NCBI GenBank assembly: GCA_028283605.1
Contig: JAPWKH010000001.1
Coordinates: forward strand, 1 to 64,000
Direction: 5' to 3'
Origin: Arachidicoccus sp.
Lineage (GTDB): Bacteria; Bacteroidota; Bacteroidia; Chitinophagales; Chitinophagaceae
Length of the DNA stretch: 64,000 nucleotides
Shown here piece after piece: positions 722 to 7,248 of this stretch (within the stretch, counting starts at the first letter, position 1; each line of letters opens with the position of its first letter). The notes under the pieces were generated by a model that ran no database searches, was not told the DNA's origin, and saw only the letters and a list, made by a program, of their open reading frames with translations. Made by a program: the position numbers and the translations under genes.

Positions 722-2989
722 ATGACGGCGTGTCCGAAGCGGGCATCCATGTTGACGCGATTTCTGCGCCATGCACTAGCGATTGCCACTGTCGGAATTG
801 CTCTTGGGGCATTGTTAATCTTCCAGCATTTCCCGGTGCGCCGCCCCTTTATGCTGGTCTATCTCGCTGCGATCGCCGTAACGTTTTGGTACGGCGGCGA
901 AGGGCCAGGGATCGCAGCGTTTGTGCTCTCGACGGGGTGCCTCCTCGGGGAATTCTTTACTTCCGAGCACGGTTGGCAGGGGCTAGTTGTTTATGATTGG
1001 CCAGGATTGTGCATCTATGTCGTCTTCTCCTGGTGGATTCGGGCCTTTGTCGACTCTCGTCGACGCCTCGAGTCAATGCTCCTGCGCAACAGCACAGTGT
1101 TGGAGGATGCAGTAAAGGCGAGAACAGACGAGCTACTTCGCGTGAATACTGAATCGAAGACGATCCTCGATGCTGCTCCTTTTGGCGTTGTCCTATTTGG
1201 ACCGGATCGTATCGTCGTTCGTTGTAATCCAGCGTACGAAACGATGATCGGGTATGGTCCCGGCGAACTTCGCGGTACTCATGCACCGTTACCCGAGGAC
1301 CAGCTAGAGACTTGGAGAGAGTTGGAAGAGACCCTTCGTGAGGGAAAGCCAGTCGTTGGCCGCGAAGTACAGCGGGTGCGGCGTAACGGCGCGCAATTTC
1401 CCGCAACAATCTGGCTGACTCCTCTGGAAGGATCTGATGGGGAGTTTGTGGGAATGGTCGGTTTCATTCTCGACGATACGGAGCGGAATGCACATGAAGC
1501 CGAGCGACAAATGCTGTCGATGCTCGTGGCGCGATCTCCCGAGTTCATTGGAGTAGCCGATGAATCCGGGAACCTCACCTTTGTTAACCCCGCCGGCAAG
1601 AGGCTCCTGGGGCTGGAAGCGAAGGGCGAGGTTGCACAGCCGAGGGTTCCTGATGAGGTGTGGAACTCTCTACCCCGTCGCCGCACGGATGCGTTCATCA
1701 AAGCCCAGGAGAGCGAAGAGAGCCATTTCTGTCTCGAGATGAGATATCCACTCACTGGGAATGGAACTGCGGTCCACCTCTATTACACGTCGTTTGCTAT
1801 TCCGCCGATGGAGCCGGGCGGAGCAACACTGTGGGCGATCGTCGCTCAGAACGTCACCGAACGGAAAGCCGCCGAGACGAGGCTACGGGAATCGCTCGAT
1901 GAGAACTGCCGGTTGCTTGAGGAGAACAAAGCCCTGCAGGAGAAGCTGCGGCACGAGAATATCTCGCTGCAAGAGCAGAATCGAGCTCTCCAAAATGAGA
2001 TCGCGGAGATTCAGAAGACGAAGTTCGATAGGATCGTGGGCCAGTCGAGTGCTCTACGCCGTGTCCTCAATAAGGTCGCGCTAGTCGCTGTGACCGATGT
2101 GACGGTGCTCATCACGGGAGAGACCGGTACAGGAAAAGAGCTGGTAGCACAAGCGATCCATGAGAACTCGAAGCGCGCGGCGATGCCATTTCGCGCATTC
2201 AACTGTGCCTCTCTACCAGCGAGCCTGATGGCCTCAGAGCTCTTCGGACACGAAAAAGGAGCCTTTACTGGAGCGGACAGGCAACGTCTCGGGCAGTTCG
2301 AGCTGGCTGCCGGAGGGACGCTGTTTCTCGATGAGATAGCCGAGCTCTCGGTCGAGGAGCAGGCCGTCCTCCTTCGGGTCCTCGAAGAACGGTCGTTCGA
2401 GCGGCTCGGAGGCGGAGGGAAGTTGATTCCGATGGATGCAAGGATCATCGTGGCGACGAACCGTGACCTTCCTGCCGCGATCCAAGCGGGAGCATTCCGG
2501 CAAGACCTGTTCTTCCGGCTCAACGGATTTCGCATCGAAGTTCCACCTTTGAGGGAACGTGTCGAGGACATTCCCTTGCTGGTGGAACATTTCGTAAGAG
2601 CCCTGGCGGCCCGTCATGGCAAAAGCATCCGTAACATTCAGAAGCGCTCCATGGAAATGTTGATGGGGTACGGGTGGCCTGGGAATATCCGCGAACTGCG
2701 GAACGTGATCGAGATGTCGGTGGTCATTTCTCCGGGGGACGAGCTGCTCATTGACGAAGAGCTTCTGTTTGGCGTCCCGTCTTTATCCGATGGAGCTTCC
2801 GGCACGCTGGAGGAAAGAGTCGCTCACTTTGAACGCGCCCTGATCGAGCGGGCGTTGGCACAAACCCGCGGGCGTGTCGCCGGACCTGCGGGGGCCGCGT
2901 CGCTCTTGGGGGTACCGCCATCGACCCTTTCGGAAAAGATGACAAGGCTGAAAATTGTGGCTTCGACGTTCAAGTCGTCTACGGATTGA
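722..2989 (+). CDS. Membrane-anchored PAS/AAA+ sigma-54-dependent transcriptional activator
   Basis: A 755-residue bacterial enhancer-binding protein. Order: several N-terminal membrane segments (about 12-110, DUF4118-like), a first PAS domain (about 145-255), a second PAS (about 262-375), a coiled coil (about 380-430), an AAA+ domain, and a C-terminal Fis-type helix-turn-helix (about 710-745). The Walker A motif GETGTGKE starts near residue 466, the sigma-54 contact loop GAFTGA is at about 513, and Walker B (TLFLDE) follows. It should use ATP to open sigma-54 promoters in response to a membrane or PAS-sensed signal. GAGGAG precedes ATG 722; an alternative ATG is at 749. Its targets are unknown, though the RiPP-like genes downstream are possible. 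The kind of signal is inference. Confidence 0.88.
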   Translation: MTACPKRASMLTRFLRHALAIATVGIALGALLIFQHFPVRRPFMLVYLAAIAVTFWYGGEGPGIAAFVLSTGCLLGEFFTSEHGWQGLVVYDWPGLCIYVVFSWWIRAFVDSRRRLESMLLRNSTVLEDAVKARTDELLRVNTESKTILDAAPFGVVLFGPDRIVVRCNPAYETMIGYGPGELRGTHAPLPEDQLETWRELEETLREGKPVVGREVQRVRRNGAQFPATIWLTPLEGSDGEFVGMVGFILDDTERNAHEAERQMLSMLVARSPEFIGVADESGNLTFVNPAGKRLLGLEAKGEVAQPRVPDEVWNSLPRRRTDAFIKAQESEESHFCLEMRYPLTGNGTAVHLYYTSFAIPPMEPGGATLWAIVAQNVTERKAAETRLRESLDENCRLLEENKALQEKLRHENISLQEQNRALQNEIAEIQKTKFDRIVGQSSALRRVLNKVALVAVTDVTVLITGETGTGKELVAQAIHENSKRAAMPFRAFNCASLPASLMASELFGHEKGAFTGADRQRLGQFELAAGGTLFLDEIAELSVEEQAVLLRVLEERSFERLGGGGKLIPMDARIIVATNRDLPAAIQAGAFRQDLFFRLNGFRIEVPPLRERVEDIPLLVEHFVRALAARHGKSIRNIQKRSMEMLMGYGWPGNIRELRNVIEMSVVISPGDELLIDEELLFGVPSLSDGASGTLEERVAHFERALIERALAQTRGRVAGPAGAASLLGVPPSTLSEKMTRLKIVASTFKSSTD

Positions 2990-3256: not shown

Positions 3257-3811
3257 ATGACGCAGTTGAAGCGCAAGGCATCTGCTTCCGGCGATCCGAA
3301 GAAGCCGATCCGCGAGCGTGCCAGGAAAATCATCGACGCTCCAGCGTCCAAACATCGGATGCGAATCCTCTTGTTTGCCTGTAGCCCGGTCGACGCGCGG
3401 ACAACGCTCAATCACGCCGATAGTACCGAGGTGGCGTTCCTTCCGAGCTTCGACCTCGAAGAGATCCGGAATGAGATTCTGCGGTTCAAACCCCGACTCA
3501 TCACGTGTCGCGCGGATTTTTTCCTGCGGCTTCTTTCTGCGGTTCCGTCCCGAACGGTAGCGCATGAACCGCTCGAAGGCTCAGTGGCGCAAAACAGGGT
3601 GCAACCGGCTCTCGTGAGCCCGCGAGAGACGAAGGTCCTAGCCATGCTGGTCCAGGGGAAAACGAATAATCAGATGGCGCGCGAACTGCGAATGAGCTCC
3701 CGAACCGTGAAGCGCACTCTTAGTGGACTGTTCGAGCGCTTCGGTGCCACGAATCGAACAGACTTAACGCACCGTACAGCCAGGCTCTGTTTGCTTGAGA
3801 ACGGGAGCTGA
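3257..3811 (+). CDS. LuxR/NarL-type HTH transcriptional regulator
   Basis: 184 residues. The C-terminal part (about residues 118-178) is a LuxR-type helix-turn-helix: it starts with the usual SPRE, continues through KTNNQMARELRMSSRTVKR and ends in a dimer helix. The N-terminal half begins like a receiver domain (MRILLFACSP, about residue 35) but I see no phosphoacceptor aspartate in the expected place, so it may be a degenerate receiver that works without phosphorylation. A basic stretch precedes it; the real start could be the ATG near residue 35. It sits 150 bases before the PqqD-kinase-peptidase genes on the same strand and is a likely local regulator of them (inference). Confidence 0.75.
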   Translation: MTQLKRKASASGDPKKPIRERARKIIDAPASKHRMRILLFACSPVDARTTLNHADSTEVAFLPSFDLEEIRNEILRFKPRLITCRADFFLRLLSAVPSRTVAHEPLEGSVAQNRVQPALVSPRETKVLAMLVQGKTNNQMARELRMSSRTVKRTLSGLFERFGATNRTDLTHRTARLCLLENGS

Positions 3812-3961: not shown

Positions 3962-4216
3962 ATGCCGATCTCTGTCGAGCAATTTCCAACCGCTGTAGGT
4001 CGTGATGCAACTTCCGTTATGGATGTGTCGCGAGACCAAATCACCGTCCTCAATACAACCGGGGGATTCATCTGGGAACGGCTGCAGAAGGGACACTCGT
4101 TCGAAGACGTCGTTCAGGCGCTTGCGGTGGAGACGAATATGAGTCCGGATGCAGTGGCTCCCGGAGTGGAACGATTCTTGAGTGAACTGCGGGCACAGCA
4201 CCTACTTCGCCCTTAG
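3962..4216 (+). CDS. PqqD-like peptide chaperone (RiPP recognition element)
   Basis: 84 residues with the PqqD signature: the first half holds two short strands and the pattern LNTTGGFIWERL, followed by helices with F..VV..L and a final V..FL..L stretch. PqqD-type proteins bind the leader of a ribosomally made peptide and present it to modifying enzymes. In lasso peptide clusters the equivalent is called B1. AAGAGG is 8 bases before the ATG. The next gene follows within 30 bases or overlaps, and a truncated S9 peptidase comes after that, so a RiPP cluster is likely. Which peptide it serves cannot be said, because no precursor is visible. Confidence 0.8.
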   Translation: MPISVEQFPTAVGRDATSVMDVSRDQITVLNTTGGFIWERLQKGHSFEDVVQALAVETNMSPDAVAPGVERFLSELRAQHLLRP

Positions 4217-4244
4217 CGACGTGGCTGTTGAGAGGGCGCTGAAG

Positions 4245-5603
4245 ATGACTCAATCCTTGCAGAGCGAATTTGAGAAAGTGCCGTACCGGGTGGCGCTCGT
4301 CTTGCCGGGTGCCGAACGATTGCTGGCCGTCAGGCGTGGAGGTCTGTTCCAGCTTCCTTTGGTGAACGTGCAGGCTTCGTTTCGGCCTGCCCAGGAGATT
4401 ACGCAATATCTCTCGGACGAATGGCAAGTCCAAGCTGTGGTTGTCGAAATTCTGCGCTCTACAGATGAAGGACCGCATACGGCGATTGCAGAGGTTCTCG
4501 CTTGGGACGGCTCCCAGGATCATGCGTCGATGACGCTAATTGGTCGTGGCGCGTCGGATGGGACATGGCTGCCGCAGCCAGTCAGGGACGGGTTGACGAA
4601 GATGTCGGAGCGCCGTTCTTCTATTGGCTATGTGGGATGGGTGGAAGAGGCAAGACAATGGGTTCGTGCCAGCTTGTCCGACCCGGTGATCGAGTTCGAT
4701 GGGACAACCCGCCAACTCAATGGGGGCGCGGGATTCATGCTCCTCCGGCTTGGGACGAAGGCGGGGCCCGCGTATTGGGTGAAAGCGACAGGAGAGCCGA
4801 ACCGTCATGAATTCGCCATTACCCAGCGGCTCTTCGAATGTTGTCCATCGTCGCTCCCCTCGATTGTCGCGGTGCATGAAGGATGGAACGCATGGGCGAT
4901 GGAAGAGGTAGGAACATCGCTCGACGACTCGGTTGAAGCCGGAACAATCGCATTGGTCGCGCAAAGCCTGGCGCGGCTTCAGCAGGCGACCTTGGGTCGA
5001 GGACAGGTGTTTGCTTATGCCGGCTGTGGCGATCAGCGAGTTGAAACGTTGCGGAGTTACCTGCCTGCCTTCATGGCGTGCGGAAAGACGCTTGCTACGG
5101 AAAGCTCTTTAGTGGCTGGTGGCGAAGTATCCATCGACATGGTGGCCCGAGCGGAGGCCGTCATCGAGGCTGCATTGAGCACCGCCCAACATCTTGAGAT
5201 CCCGGACGCAATCAACAATAACGACATGAAGCTCGCGAACATCCTCTTCGATGGAACGAGGGCTGCCTTTACGGATTGGTGTCACGCATATTGGGGAAAC
5301 CCGTTCCTCACGTTTCAACACTTGCATACCTACCTGTCCAGACGCTTGCCGGCACTGGGGCGAGTGTTCCAAGAGACTTATGTGGCGGAGTGGACCGCGC
5401 TCCTTTCCGAAGGGCAAATCTCAGGTGCCTTGACCCTCGCTCCTGTGATCGCTCCCTATGCGTATCTCAGCGCGCGCGGCCCTCAGTCTTTGCTGGCACG
5501 CTCCGGGGAACCTGGCTTTAGGAAATACTTTGCGAACATCCTAAGGCGAATCGTCAAGGCCGGAGGAGAACTGCGTGGGAAGGAGCAATGGGTGTATGCA
5601 TGA
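4245..5603 (+). CDS. APH/choline-kinase-like phosphotransferase in a RiPP-like cluster
   Basis: About 452 residues from ATG 4245 (GAGAGG about 10 bases upstream); the frame is open back to GTG 4182, which would overlap the PqqD gene. The first 130 residues are not recognised. The rest is a kinase of the aminoglycoside-phosphotransferase fold: the catalytic loop reads NNNDMKLANILFDG, with the catalytic Asp and the metal-binding Asn, and the DFG-like aspartate is in AFTDWCHAYWGNP. The invariant lysine is probably the one in YWVKATGE. It could phosphorylate the peptide product or a small molecule; kinases do occur in some lasso clusters. Its stop overlaps the next start by 8 bases, so the two are translationally coupled. 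Confidence 0.65.
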   Translation: MTQSLQSEFEKVPYRVALVLPGAERLLAVRRGGLFQLPLVNVQASFRPAQEITQYLSDEWQVQAVVVEILRSTDEGPHTAIAEVLAWDGSQDHASMTLIGRGASDGTWLPQPVRDGLTKMSERRSSIGYVGWVEEARQWVRASLSDPVIEFDGTTRQLNGGAGFMLLRLGTKAGPAYWVKATGEPNRHEFAITQRLFECCPSSLPSIVAVHEGWNAWAMEEVGTSLDDSVEAGTIALVAQSLARLQQATLGRGQVFAYAGCGDQRVETLRSYLPAFMACGKTLATESSLVAGGEVSIDMVARAEAVIEAALSTAQHLEIPDAINNNDMKLANILFDGTRAAFTDWCHAYWGNPFLTFQHLHTYLSRRLPALGRVFQETYVAEWTALLSEGQISGALTLAPVIAPYAYLSARGPQSLLARSGEPGFRKYFANILRRIVKAGGELRGKEQWVYA

Positions 5604-6477
5604 GTTTCAGCGTCAAGACGTTGTGGACGTCCTGCATGGAGTTCCCGTCAGCGATCCGTATCGGTGGCTCGAGGATCGGGACTCGCCGCTCACACAAGAA
5701 TGGCTGGATGTACAGCGTGAGCAATCGGATGCCTACTTTTCTGCCTGCGAGGGTGTCGAATGGCTGCGCGAGCGCGTCCGGGTCTTGCTCGACCGAGAGG
5801 AAGTTTCGCAGCCTATCGGCGTGGGCAGTCGTATTTTTTTTCGCCGGCGCAACGTGGGGCAGGAGCAGCCGTGCATCTGCATGTCTTACCTCGATAAGAC
5901 GGGAACGCAAGTGCTTATTGATCCCTCAGAACGTGGGCCGATGTCGTCAGTTCTCATCCATCGCGTCAGCGACAATGGCTCGCTGCTTGCGTTTGCATGC
6001 GCCAACGGAGGATCGGATGCGAAGGAGATGCATTTCCTCGATGTGGATTGTGCCACGGTTCTGCCGGATTTTCTTCCCATGGCTCGTTCGCGGGGCATTG
6101 AGTTCTTCCGTGACAATACAGGCTTTTACTACTCTCTCGACGGTGCGGGAGCGAGTTCGAGCAACGTGCATGCTATCCGCCGGCATGTATTTGGGCTGAC
6201 AACGGGGCATGACCCTGTGATCTTCTCTGTGCCGCGATCAAGCCTCAGCAAGTTGATTCTTCTCGGAGACGAAGTGAATTTGGGGGCCCTCCACGTCTAC
6301 GAGACAAGTGGAGGGTTTAAGAGCGACGTCTACCGAACGCTTCGAGATGAACCCTCCGCCTGGAAGCTTGTAACTGGAGGACTTCCAGCAACGACCGGTG
6401 TCGTGTTTCGTGACGGAAAGATCTTCTTCTTCAGGGAAACTTGGGACCGCCAAAGAGAGCTCCTATGCATCGATCAA
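5596..6477 (+). CDS. S9 prolyl oligopeptidase family protein, N-terminal part only
   Basis: From ATG 5596 (GGAG about 10 bases upstream), the first 290 or so residues match prolyl oligopeptidases: DPYRWLEDRDSPLTQEWL near the start, then beta-propeller blades with motifs such as FFRRRNVGQEQP and DGKIFFFRETWDR. The catalytic alpha/beta-hydrolase domain with the GGSxGG serine is missing because the frame passes into a pyruvate dehydrogenase sequence at about 6478. In lasso peptide clusters an S9 relative acts as an isopeptidase that opens the ring, so this is a plausible role here, but without the catalytic part that is inference. The truncation is best explained by an assembly join. Confidence 0.75.
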
Positions 6478-6485
6478 AACGGATT
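6468..6485. other. Chimeric junction between two genomes
   Basis: Up to about 6475 the sequence is GC-rich and encodes a prolyl oligopeptidase propeller; from 6478 it is AT-rich and encodes the middle of a pyruvate dehydrogenase E1 beta subunit. Both genes are cut at this point and both are otherwise well conserved. The shift in base composition and in translation signals persists for the rest of the window on each side. The codons for Asn-Gly at 6478-6483 would fit either protein, so the exact join cannot be fixed. Confidence 0.85.
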
Positions 6486-7248
6486 ATTACCAATCGTTGA
6501 ATTCATGACCTGGAATTTCGCCGTTTTGGCCTTGGATCAAATATTAAACACTGCCTCTAAAATGTTGGCAATGAGTGGTGGCCAGATTGGTTGTCCCATT
6601 GTATTTCGCGGGCCAAACGGAAGCGCAGGGCAATTAGGCGCTCAACATTCTACAGCATTTGAATCTTTGTATGCCAATATTCCCGGTATTAAAGTTGTTT
6701 CCATTTCCAACGGTTACGACGGTAAAGGATTATTAAAGCAAGCCATCAGATACGAACAGGATCCGATAATGTTTATGGAAAGTGAAGTAATGTATGGTGA
6801 TAAATGCGAAGTACCTGAAGAAGAATATTATATAGAAATAGGCAAGGCTGATATTAAAAAACCGGGGAAAGATATAACCATTGTTTCCTTTAGTAAAATG
6901 ATGAAAGTGGCCTTAGGGGCTGCTGCCGAATTAGAAAAAGAAGGTATCAGCGCTGAAGTGATTGATCTGCGTACGATTCGTCCGTTAGACTGGCATACTA
7001 TCTTAGAAAGTGTGAAAAAAACGAATCGTCTCGTAATTGTGGAAGAACAATGGCCATTTGCATCCGTAAGTTCAGAAATAACTTATCGTATCCAAAAAGA
7101 AGGTTTTGATTATCTCGATGCACCGATACGCCGCATTACCAGCGCAGACGCGCCTATGCACTATTCGCCAACGCTGATCGATGCTTATTTGCCAAACATA
7201 GAAAGAACAGTAAAATTGGTAAAAGAAGTAATGTATCTAAAAAAATAG
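6478..7248 (+). CDS. pdhB: Pyruvate dehydrogenase E1 component beta subunit, C-terminal part
   Basis: About 256 residues, beginning with GLLPIVEFMTWNFAVLALDQ and running to the normal end. Family features include CPIVFRGPNGSAGQLGAQHS, PIMFMESEVMYGD, the transketolase C-terminal domain with IDLRTIRPLD, and VEEQWPF. The E1 beta subunit, with E1 alpha, decarboxylates pyruvate with thiamine diphosphate in the pyruvate dehydrogenase complex. Around 75 N-terminal residues, including the catalytic Glu region, are missing because of the join. The true gene in the Bacteroidota genome is presumably complete. A hairpin with flanking A and T runs follows at 7275-7309. Confidence 0.9.
   Translation, partial: NGLLPIVEFMTWNFAVLALDQILNTASKMLAMSGGQIGCPIVFRGPNGSAGQLGAQHSTAFESLYANIPGIKVVSISNGYDGKGLLKQAIRYEQDPIMFMESEVMYGDKCEVPEEEYYIEIGKADIKKPGKDITIVSFSKMMKVALGAAAELEKEGISAEVIDLRTIRPLDWHTILESVKKTNRLVIVEEQWPFASVSSEITYRIQKEGFDYLDAPIRRITSADAPMHYSPTLIDAYLPNIERTVKLVKEVMYLKK

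Follow-up and report, generated by a model that had tools for sequence, protein, structure and literature searches.

Two truncated genes share one open reading frame

The window analysed here, a stretch of 64,000 bases, comprises bases 1-64000 of contig C25 (86,887 bp) of genome G000, an assembly of 35 contigs and 3,588,324 bp that is rated 98.91% complete and 1.34% contaminated. The contig begins at window base 1, so the left 6,474 bp of the window form the tail of the contig. At the inner edge of this tail, an open frame of 557 aa on the forward strand (5575-7248) carries Pfam matches to two unrelated enzymes. Its left part, with an ATG at 5596, is the 5' part of an S9 prolyl-oligopeptidase gene (5596..6474, 293 codons, PF02897), and its right part is by homology the 3' part of pdhB, which encodes the pyruvate dehydrogenase beta subunit (6475..7248, 257 codons plus stop). 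The names pdhB, valS, der, APC permease, MFS, OppA and SusC are what we take these genes to be on reading the sequences.

Neither half is complete. Peptidase_S9_N covers residues 13-221 of the frame (profile positions 6-226 of 414), and the Pfam scan of the frame found no S9 catalytic domain. On the other side, Transket_pyr matches residues 302-407 from profile position 70 onwards (70-172 of 174), its N-terminal part being missing, while Transketolase_C is nearly entire (residues 423-543, profile 1-122 of 124). A natural fusion would join complete functional domains; here an S9 protein without its catalytic domain meets a Transket_pyr domain that begins at position 70 of 174, and both genes are cut at the junction, as a chimeric contig would show.

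Similarity between the S9 half and the related locus L137 reaches codon 293 (window 6472-6474), with that to three other related loci (L016, L138 and L139) ending earlier, at codon 230 or 277. The first window base with similarity to pdhB is 6475. The junction (6474..6475) can be placed to about one base, the ambiguity arising because a T stands at 6474 on both sides. A preliminary description of this DNA, made from the letters alone, had located an in-frame S9/pdhB join within 6440..6520 and had noted that each gene lacks its other half at the same point. Both statements hold: the break lies inside that range, and the two parts lack the S9 catalytic domain and the pdhB start, respectively. 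The same description regarded a fused enzyme of this kind as biochemically senseless, which agrees with the incomplete folds of both halves and with the pdhB match lying in a separate, single frame of 324-372 aa in 18/18 relatives searched. The fusion frame is no gene, and it is open by chance.

The 5' part of pdhB lies at the end of another contig

A search of the genome itself with the pdhB start of a congener located residues 1-71 at positions 15295-15507 of contig C2, with 97% identity to that congener (G003). C2 is 15,507 bp long, and the pdhB start occupies its final 213 bases, up to the last one; the terminal sequence (...GTAGGCGCGGCT) is native pdhB and contains zero foreign bases. In the four same-genus loci that were read at this point (L005-L008), the residues that follow the C2 end are Gln-Asn-Gly. 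Two of the four spell them CAAAACGG, and the window carries CAAAACGG at 6475. Placed side by side, the C2 and C25 halves give 329 codons including the stop, with no internal stop. The two contigs do not overlap, so that they are paired by homology and frame and not by shared sequence.

The native continuation of the right-hand side is thus present elsewhere in the assembly and abuts the junction to the base. Across the 252 residues compared, pdhB is 90-94% identical in five same-genus relatives, and identity falls to 48% in the most distant relative. Judged from these alignments, the right side belongs to the native genome, and the interruption of pdhB exists in the assembly alone. The preliminary description had proposed a search for intact copies of both genes: the missing pdhB half was found at the end of C2, and no intact S9 copy was found in the genome. 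Apart from itself, the S9 half matches nothing convincing there (next best E 0.28), which is expected if the S9 gene belongs to another organism.

Composition and ribosome sites change at the junction

By maximum likelihood, the GC content of the window changes at 6463, where it drops from 56.7% to 36.8%. The six left 1-kb bins range from 53.6 to 58.6% GC, whereas the 72 native 1-kb bins have a mean of 36.9% (sd 3.5, max 43.8%). Tetranucleotide usage, expressed as the L1 distance to the rest of the window, likewise sets the left block (0.707) apart from eight right blocks (0.115-0.164). As a chimeric contig would lead one to expect, composition changes abruptly at one point, by both GC change point and tetranucleotide L1 distance. 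The shift in base composition asserted earlier at the join is therefore real, but the comparison of k-mer profiles suggested along with it gave a divided answer: the L1 distance separates the two sides and the TETRA correlation does not (0.504 for the left, 0.481-0.752 for the right).

A change of ribosome sites had also been described. None of the 30 right-hand ATG open reading frames of at least 250 aa has GGAG, GAGG or AGGA at -20 to -4, and such a word, read by eye, precedes all of four hand-chosen left starts (722, 3257, 4182 and 5596), a small sample in which the word before 4182 occupies -19 to -16, rather distant for a ribosome site. With these limits, the difference points the way that had been claimed. 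The promoter word TTG-N17-21-TAnnTTTG was counted 10 times in the right-hand 57.5 kb and never in the left-hand 6.5 kb, where the right-hand rate would give about one, so that the promoter comparison says nothing.

Gene content and relatives of the foreign tail

The foreign tail, which forms the 5' end of C25 (1..6474, GC 56.7%), was recognised by the GC and tetranucleotide break, by the lack of a second copy in the genome, and by gene-pair relatives in the phylum of an Acidobacteria MAG and not in the window's own. Upstream of the S9 half, all on the forward strand, it encodes a PAS/sigma-54 activator of 755 aa (722..2989, Pfam), a LuxR/GerE-type regulator of 184 aa (3257..3811, Pfam), an 84-aa PqqD-family protein resembling RRE or lasso B1 proteins (3962..4216, PF05402, E 2e-13) and a 473-aa kinase-like protein (4182..5603). 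The last has no Pfam or NCBIfam match of its own and was classed as a relative of APH-fold proteins through its relatives in L137 and L138, which match PF01636 (APH). By eye, it reads NNDMKLAN where the relative in L016 has HSDFNPGN; the histidine of the kinase motif may thus be replaced.

In a scan for close relatives by short peptide patterns, the single relative of the S9 half was L016, from an Acidobacteria MAG. The kinase-like protein matches 5 of 199 genomes in the phylum of this MAG, the MAG included (best E 2.9e-65), and, as a control, none of 197 further genomes from the phylum of the window itself. The S9 half itself matches 143 of the 199 genomes in the MAG's phylum (best E 3.5e-59) and 134 of the 197 others in the window's own (best E 4.3e-26). 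Because S9 genes are common in both phyla, the donor is indicated only by the close S9 type and by the gene pair. In all five genomes that carry the kinase-like gene, the S9 match adjoins it on the same strand, as seen by direct comparison in L016, L137, L138 and L139 and by coordinates in the fifth genome. These donor-phylum loci have 53-56% GC and share 27-41% identity with the tail genes.

The two sides of the junction consequently have different nearest relatives, those of the right side lying in the same genus (90-94% identity) and those of the left in the phylum of the Acidobacteria MAG. The tail stems from another organism, most likely a member of the Acidobacteriota. The similarities thus place the donor in or near the MAG's phylum and do not narrow it to a genus.

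A possible lasso-peptide-type cluster in the tail

Between 3962 and 6474, the tail has the order PqqD-family protein, kinase-like protein and S9 oligopeptidase, and the same three genes stand in L137. In L137, L138 and L016 the series continues with a transglutaminase-like B2 protein and then an asparagine-synthase-like protein; in L139, open reading frames that resemble these in size and sequence come next, and in L016 the PqqD side lies beyond the contig end. The NCBIfam lasso PqqD models match the PqqD-family protein of the tail below their cut-offs. Two further models concern the relatives and not the tail: NF033537, for B2, exceeds its cut-off in both L137 and L016, and NF033535, for the cyclase, stays below its own. 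For the S9 protein of L137, the NCBIfam model of AtxE2-type isopeptidases gave a score of 11.9, its cut-off being 400, and the window's S9 half is not among its listed matches. No lasso precursor gene was identified.

From gene order and profile matches, the tail would belong to a cluster of the lasso-peptide type in which the B gene is split, its B2 and cyclase genes being known from the relatives alone. A tentative and more specific proposal, which we hold to be somewhat less probable than its opposite, is that the tail holds the first genes of a lasso-peptide-type cluster from the Acidobacteriota (PqqD-type RRE, kinase, S9, B2, cyclase), whose product would be tailored by the APH-like kinase and processed by the S9 enzyme. 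In three lasso clusters with split B1 and B2 from soil metagenomes, prolyl oligopeptidase genes lie between core genes (PMC12670498). The tail resembles those clusters in its PqqD-family and S9 genes, and its relatives add B2 and asparagine-synthase-like genes. Unlike them, the tail has a kinase-like gene between the PqqD-family and S9 genes; the main text of that report contains no word starting with 'kinase'.

GC-rich tails at other contig ends

We sampled 3 kb from each of the 70 contig ends (longer for C2 and C25). At 11 of the 70, the terminal 1 kb exceeds 50% GC. Clear GC breaks were seen at ten ends (C6 5', C9 3', C13 both, C16 3', C18 both, C25 both and C31 3'), whose tails have 49-69% GC; the break at C9 3' (36.9% to 49.0%) is weaker than that at C6 5'. 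The GC-rich 5' end of C10 has a composition that is mixed over 20 kb and was kept out of the ten. C20 3', C21 5' and C23 5' were considered as tails and rejected, as their GC rises only moderately (44-45% vs 34-37%).

A native continuation in another contig was found for 6 of the 10 breaks, the search covering those at both ends of C13, C18 and C25, at C16 3' and at C31 3'. Besides the C25 5' break, which continues in C2, these are C18 3' (continued in C8), C16 3' (in C5), C13 5', C13 3' and C25 3'. At C13 5', a permease-like gene is cut at residue 268 and the first bases of C35 resume it at residue 270, with a few shared bases and a one-base length difference by eye. C13 3' (der-like) and C25 3' (valS-like) align over 2,231 columns (97.2% identity, 32 gaps), each of them continuing as native sequence where the other turns foreign. 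The copy of this 2.2-kb stretch at C25 3' is frameshifted. C13 and C25 are probably neighbours, the C25 3' end being of low accuracy. For C31 3' and C18 5', no native continuation was found among the contig-end sequences searched. At C18 5', a periplasmic binding protein is fused in frame to a TonB barrel, so that the window is not the only place in the assembly where a junction joins unrelated genes in one frame.

Open reading frames in or across the tails encode a histidine kinase (C18 3'), the complex I 49-kDa subunit (C31 3'), an ABC transporter (C13 5') and a protein with a glycosyl-transferase family 3 domain (C13 3'). The foreign tail of C16 3' consists of a WD40-repeat protein of eukaryote-like look (L096, 16804-19302). 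Next to the GC break of the short C6 5' tail lie long simple repeats (L091, about 1000-1475), and the same end has an Rfam match to a group II intron family (L091, 345-498). The Rfam scan covered seven sequences (C6, C9, C10, C21, C23 and C25 3' ends) and returned no rRNA.

Origin of the junction

Taken together, these results argue that C25 is a chimeric contig built from two organisms and that the S9-pdhB join is an assembly artefact, a reading to which we assign a probability of about 97%. That two source organisms are involved had been claimed beforehand, and three lines of evidence speak for it: the abutting end of C2, the relatives of the tail outside the window's own phylum, and the nine further GC breaks at contig ends. 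In the native genome, by its look that of a member of the Bacteroidota, pdhB runs uninterrupted from the 3' end of C2 into C25 at 6475. The assembly is broken at that base, with 6,474 bp of another community member's DNA forming the 5' end of C25.

A real horizontal insertion, with foreign DNA splitting pdhB on the native chromosome or only within part of the population, would also account for the presence of both pdhB halves and for their exact meeting, the state expected after insertion without target duplication. An inserted element would, however, leave foreign DNA on both halves of its target, and the other end of that DNA should then follow the pdhB start on C2; yet C2 stops at the break, purely native and without a foreign base. 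Nor would an insertion at pdhB explain nine other GC breaks at contig ends with tails of 49-69% GC, one of them with a WD40-repeat protein. We therefore consider it very improbable. Still less credence, close to none, can be given to a genuine fused gene encoding an S9-pdhB protein: the frame is indeed open across the join, but each half lacks part of its fold, pdhB has its own separate frame in all 18 relatives, and the matching pdhB start lies elsewhere in the same genome.

As to how the chimeric contig came about, we infer that the data are long-read metagenomic and that an artificial chimeric long read, or a graph path to which such a read gave rise, brought the tail in. Foreign DNA and pdhB would have been linked in a chimeric molecule or read; the native path would then have been split at that base, with the foreign arm staying on C25. 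Ten overlaps between end stretches are 94.0-99.3% identical, nine with 6-34 gaps and one without, and in one case the aligned stretch is not terminal in the second contig; these come from a table restricted to alignments of >300 bases and <99.99% identity, from which exact long overlaps would drop out. A comparison of the contig ends gave no exact terminal overlap of 12-300 bases. Such gapped overlaps between contigs suggest a long-read assembly. The open reading frames of the tail are intact, unlike those of one unpolished noisy read, so that if a single read supplied the tail it would have been accurate or polished. A less likely variant of the chimeric-contig explanation is that two sound reads were wrongly joined during assembly where they have a short sequence in common, with no chimeric read involved. 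This would also yield foreign tails, but the sequence common to C2 and C25 before the break amounts to one base, in a comparison on the native side only.

Inter-genome chimeric contigs are described in metagenome assemblies for species of low and intermediate coverage (PMC7881036). The present case is like those in that reads of different community members would share one contig; it differs in that the fault is seen from one genome, through the abutting C2 and the other tails. Artificial chimeric nanopore reads from ligation libraries are documented as well (PMC13141652, PMC5600009), in which, as proposed here, unrelated molecules are read as one. PMC13141652 stresses inverted repeats; here long reads are deduced from gapped contig overlaps.

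Implications for the genome

No biology follows from the fusion, and its significance is one of quality control. The genome is rated 98.91% complete and 1.34% contaminated, yet GC-rich, foreign-looking tails stand at up to 11 of its 70 contig ends. Any gene fusion, horizontal transfer or biosynthetic cluster predicted close to such an end would be spurious, and in this assembly pdhB would look broken.
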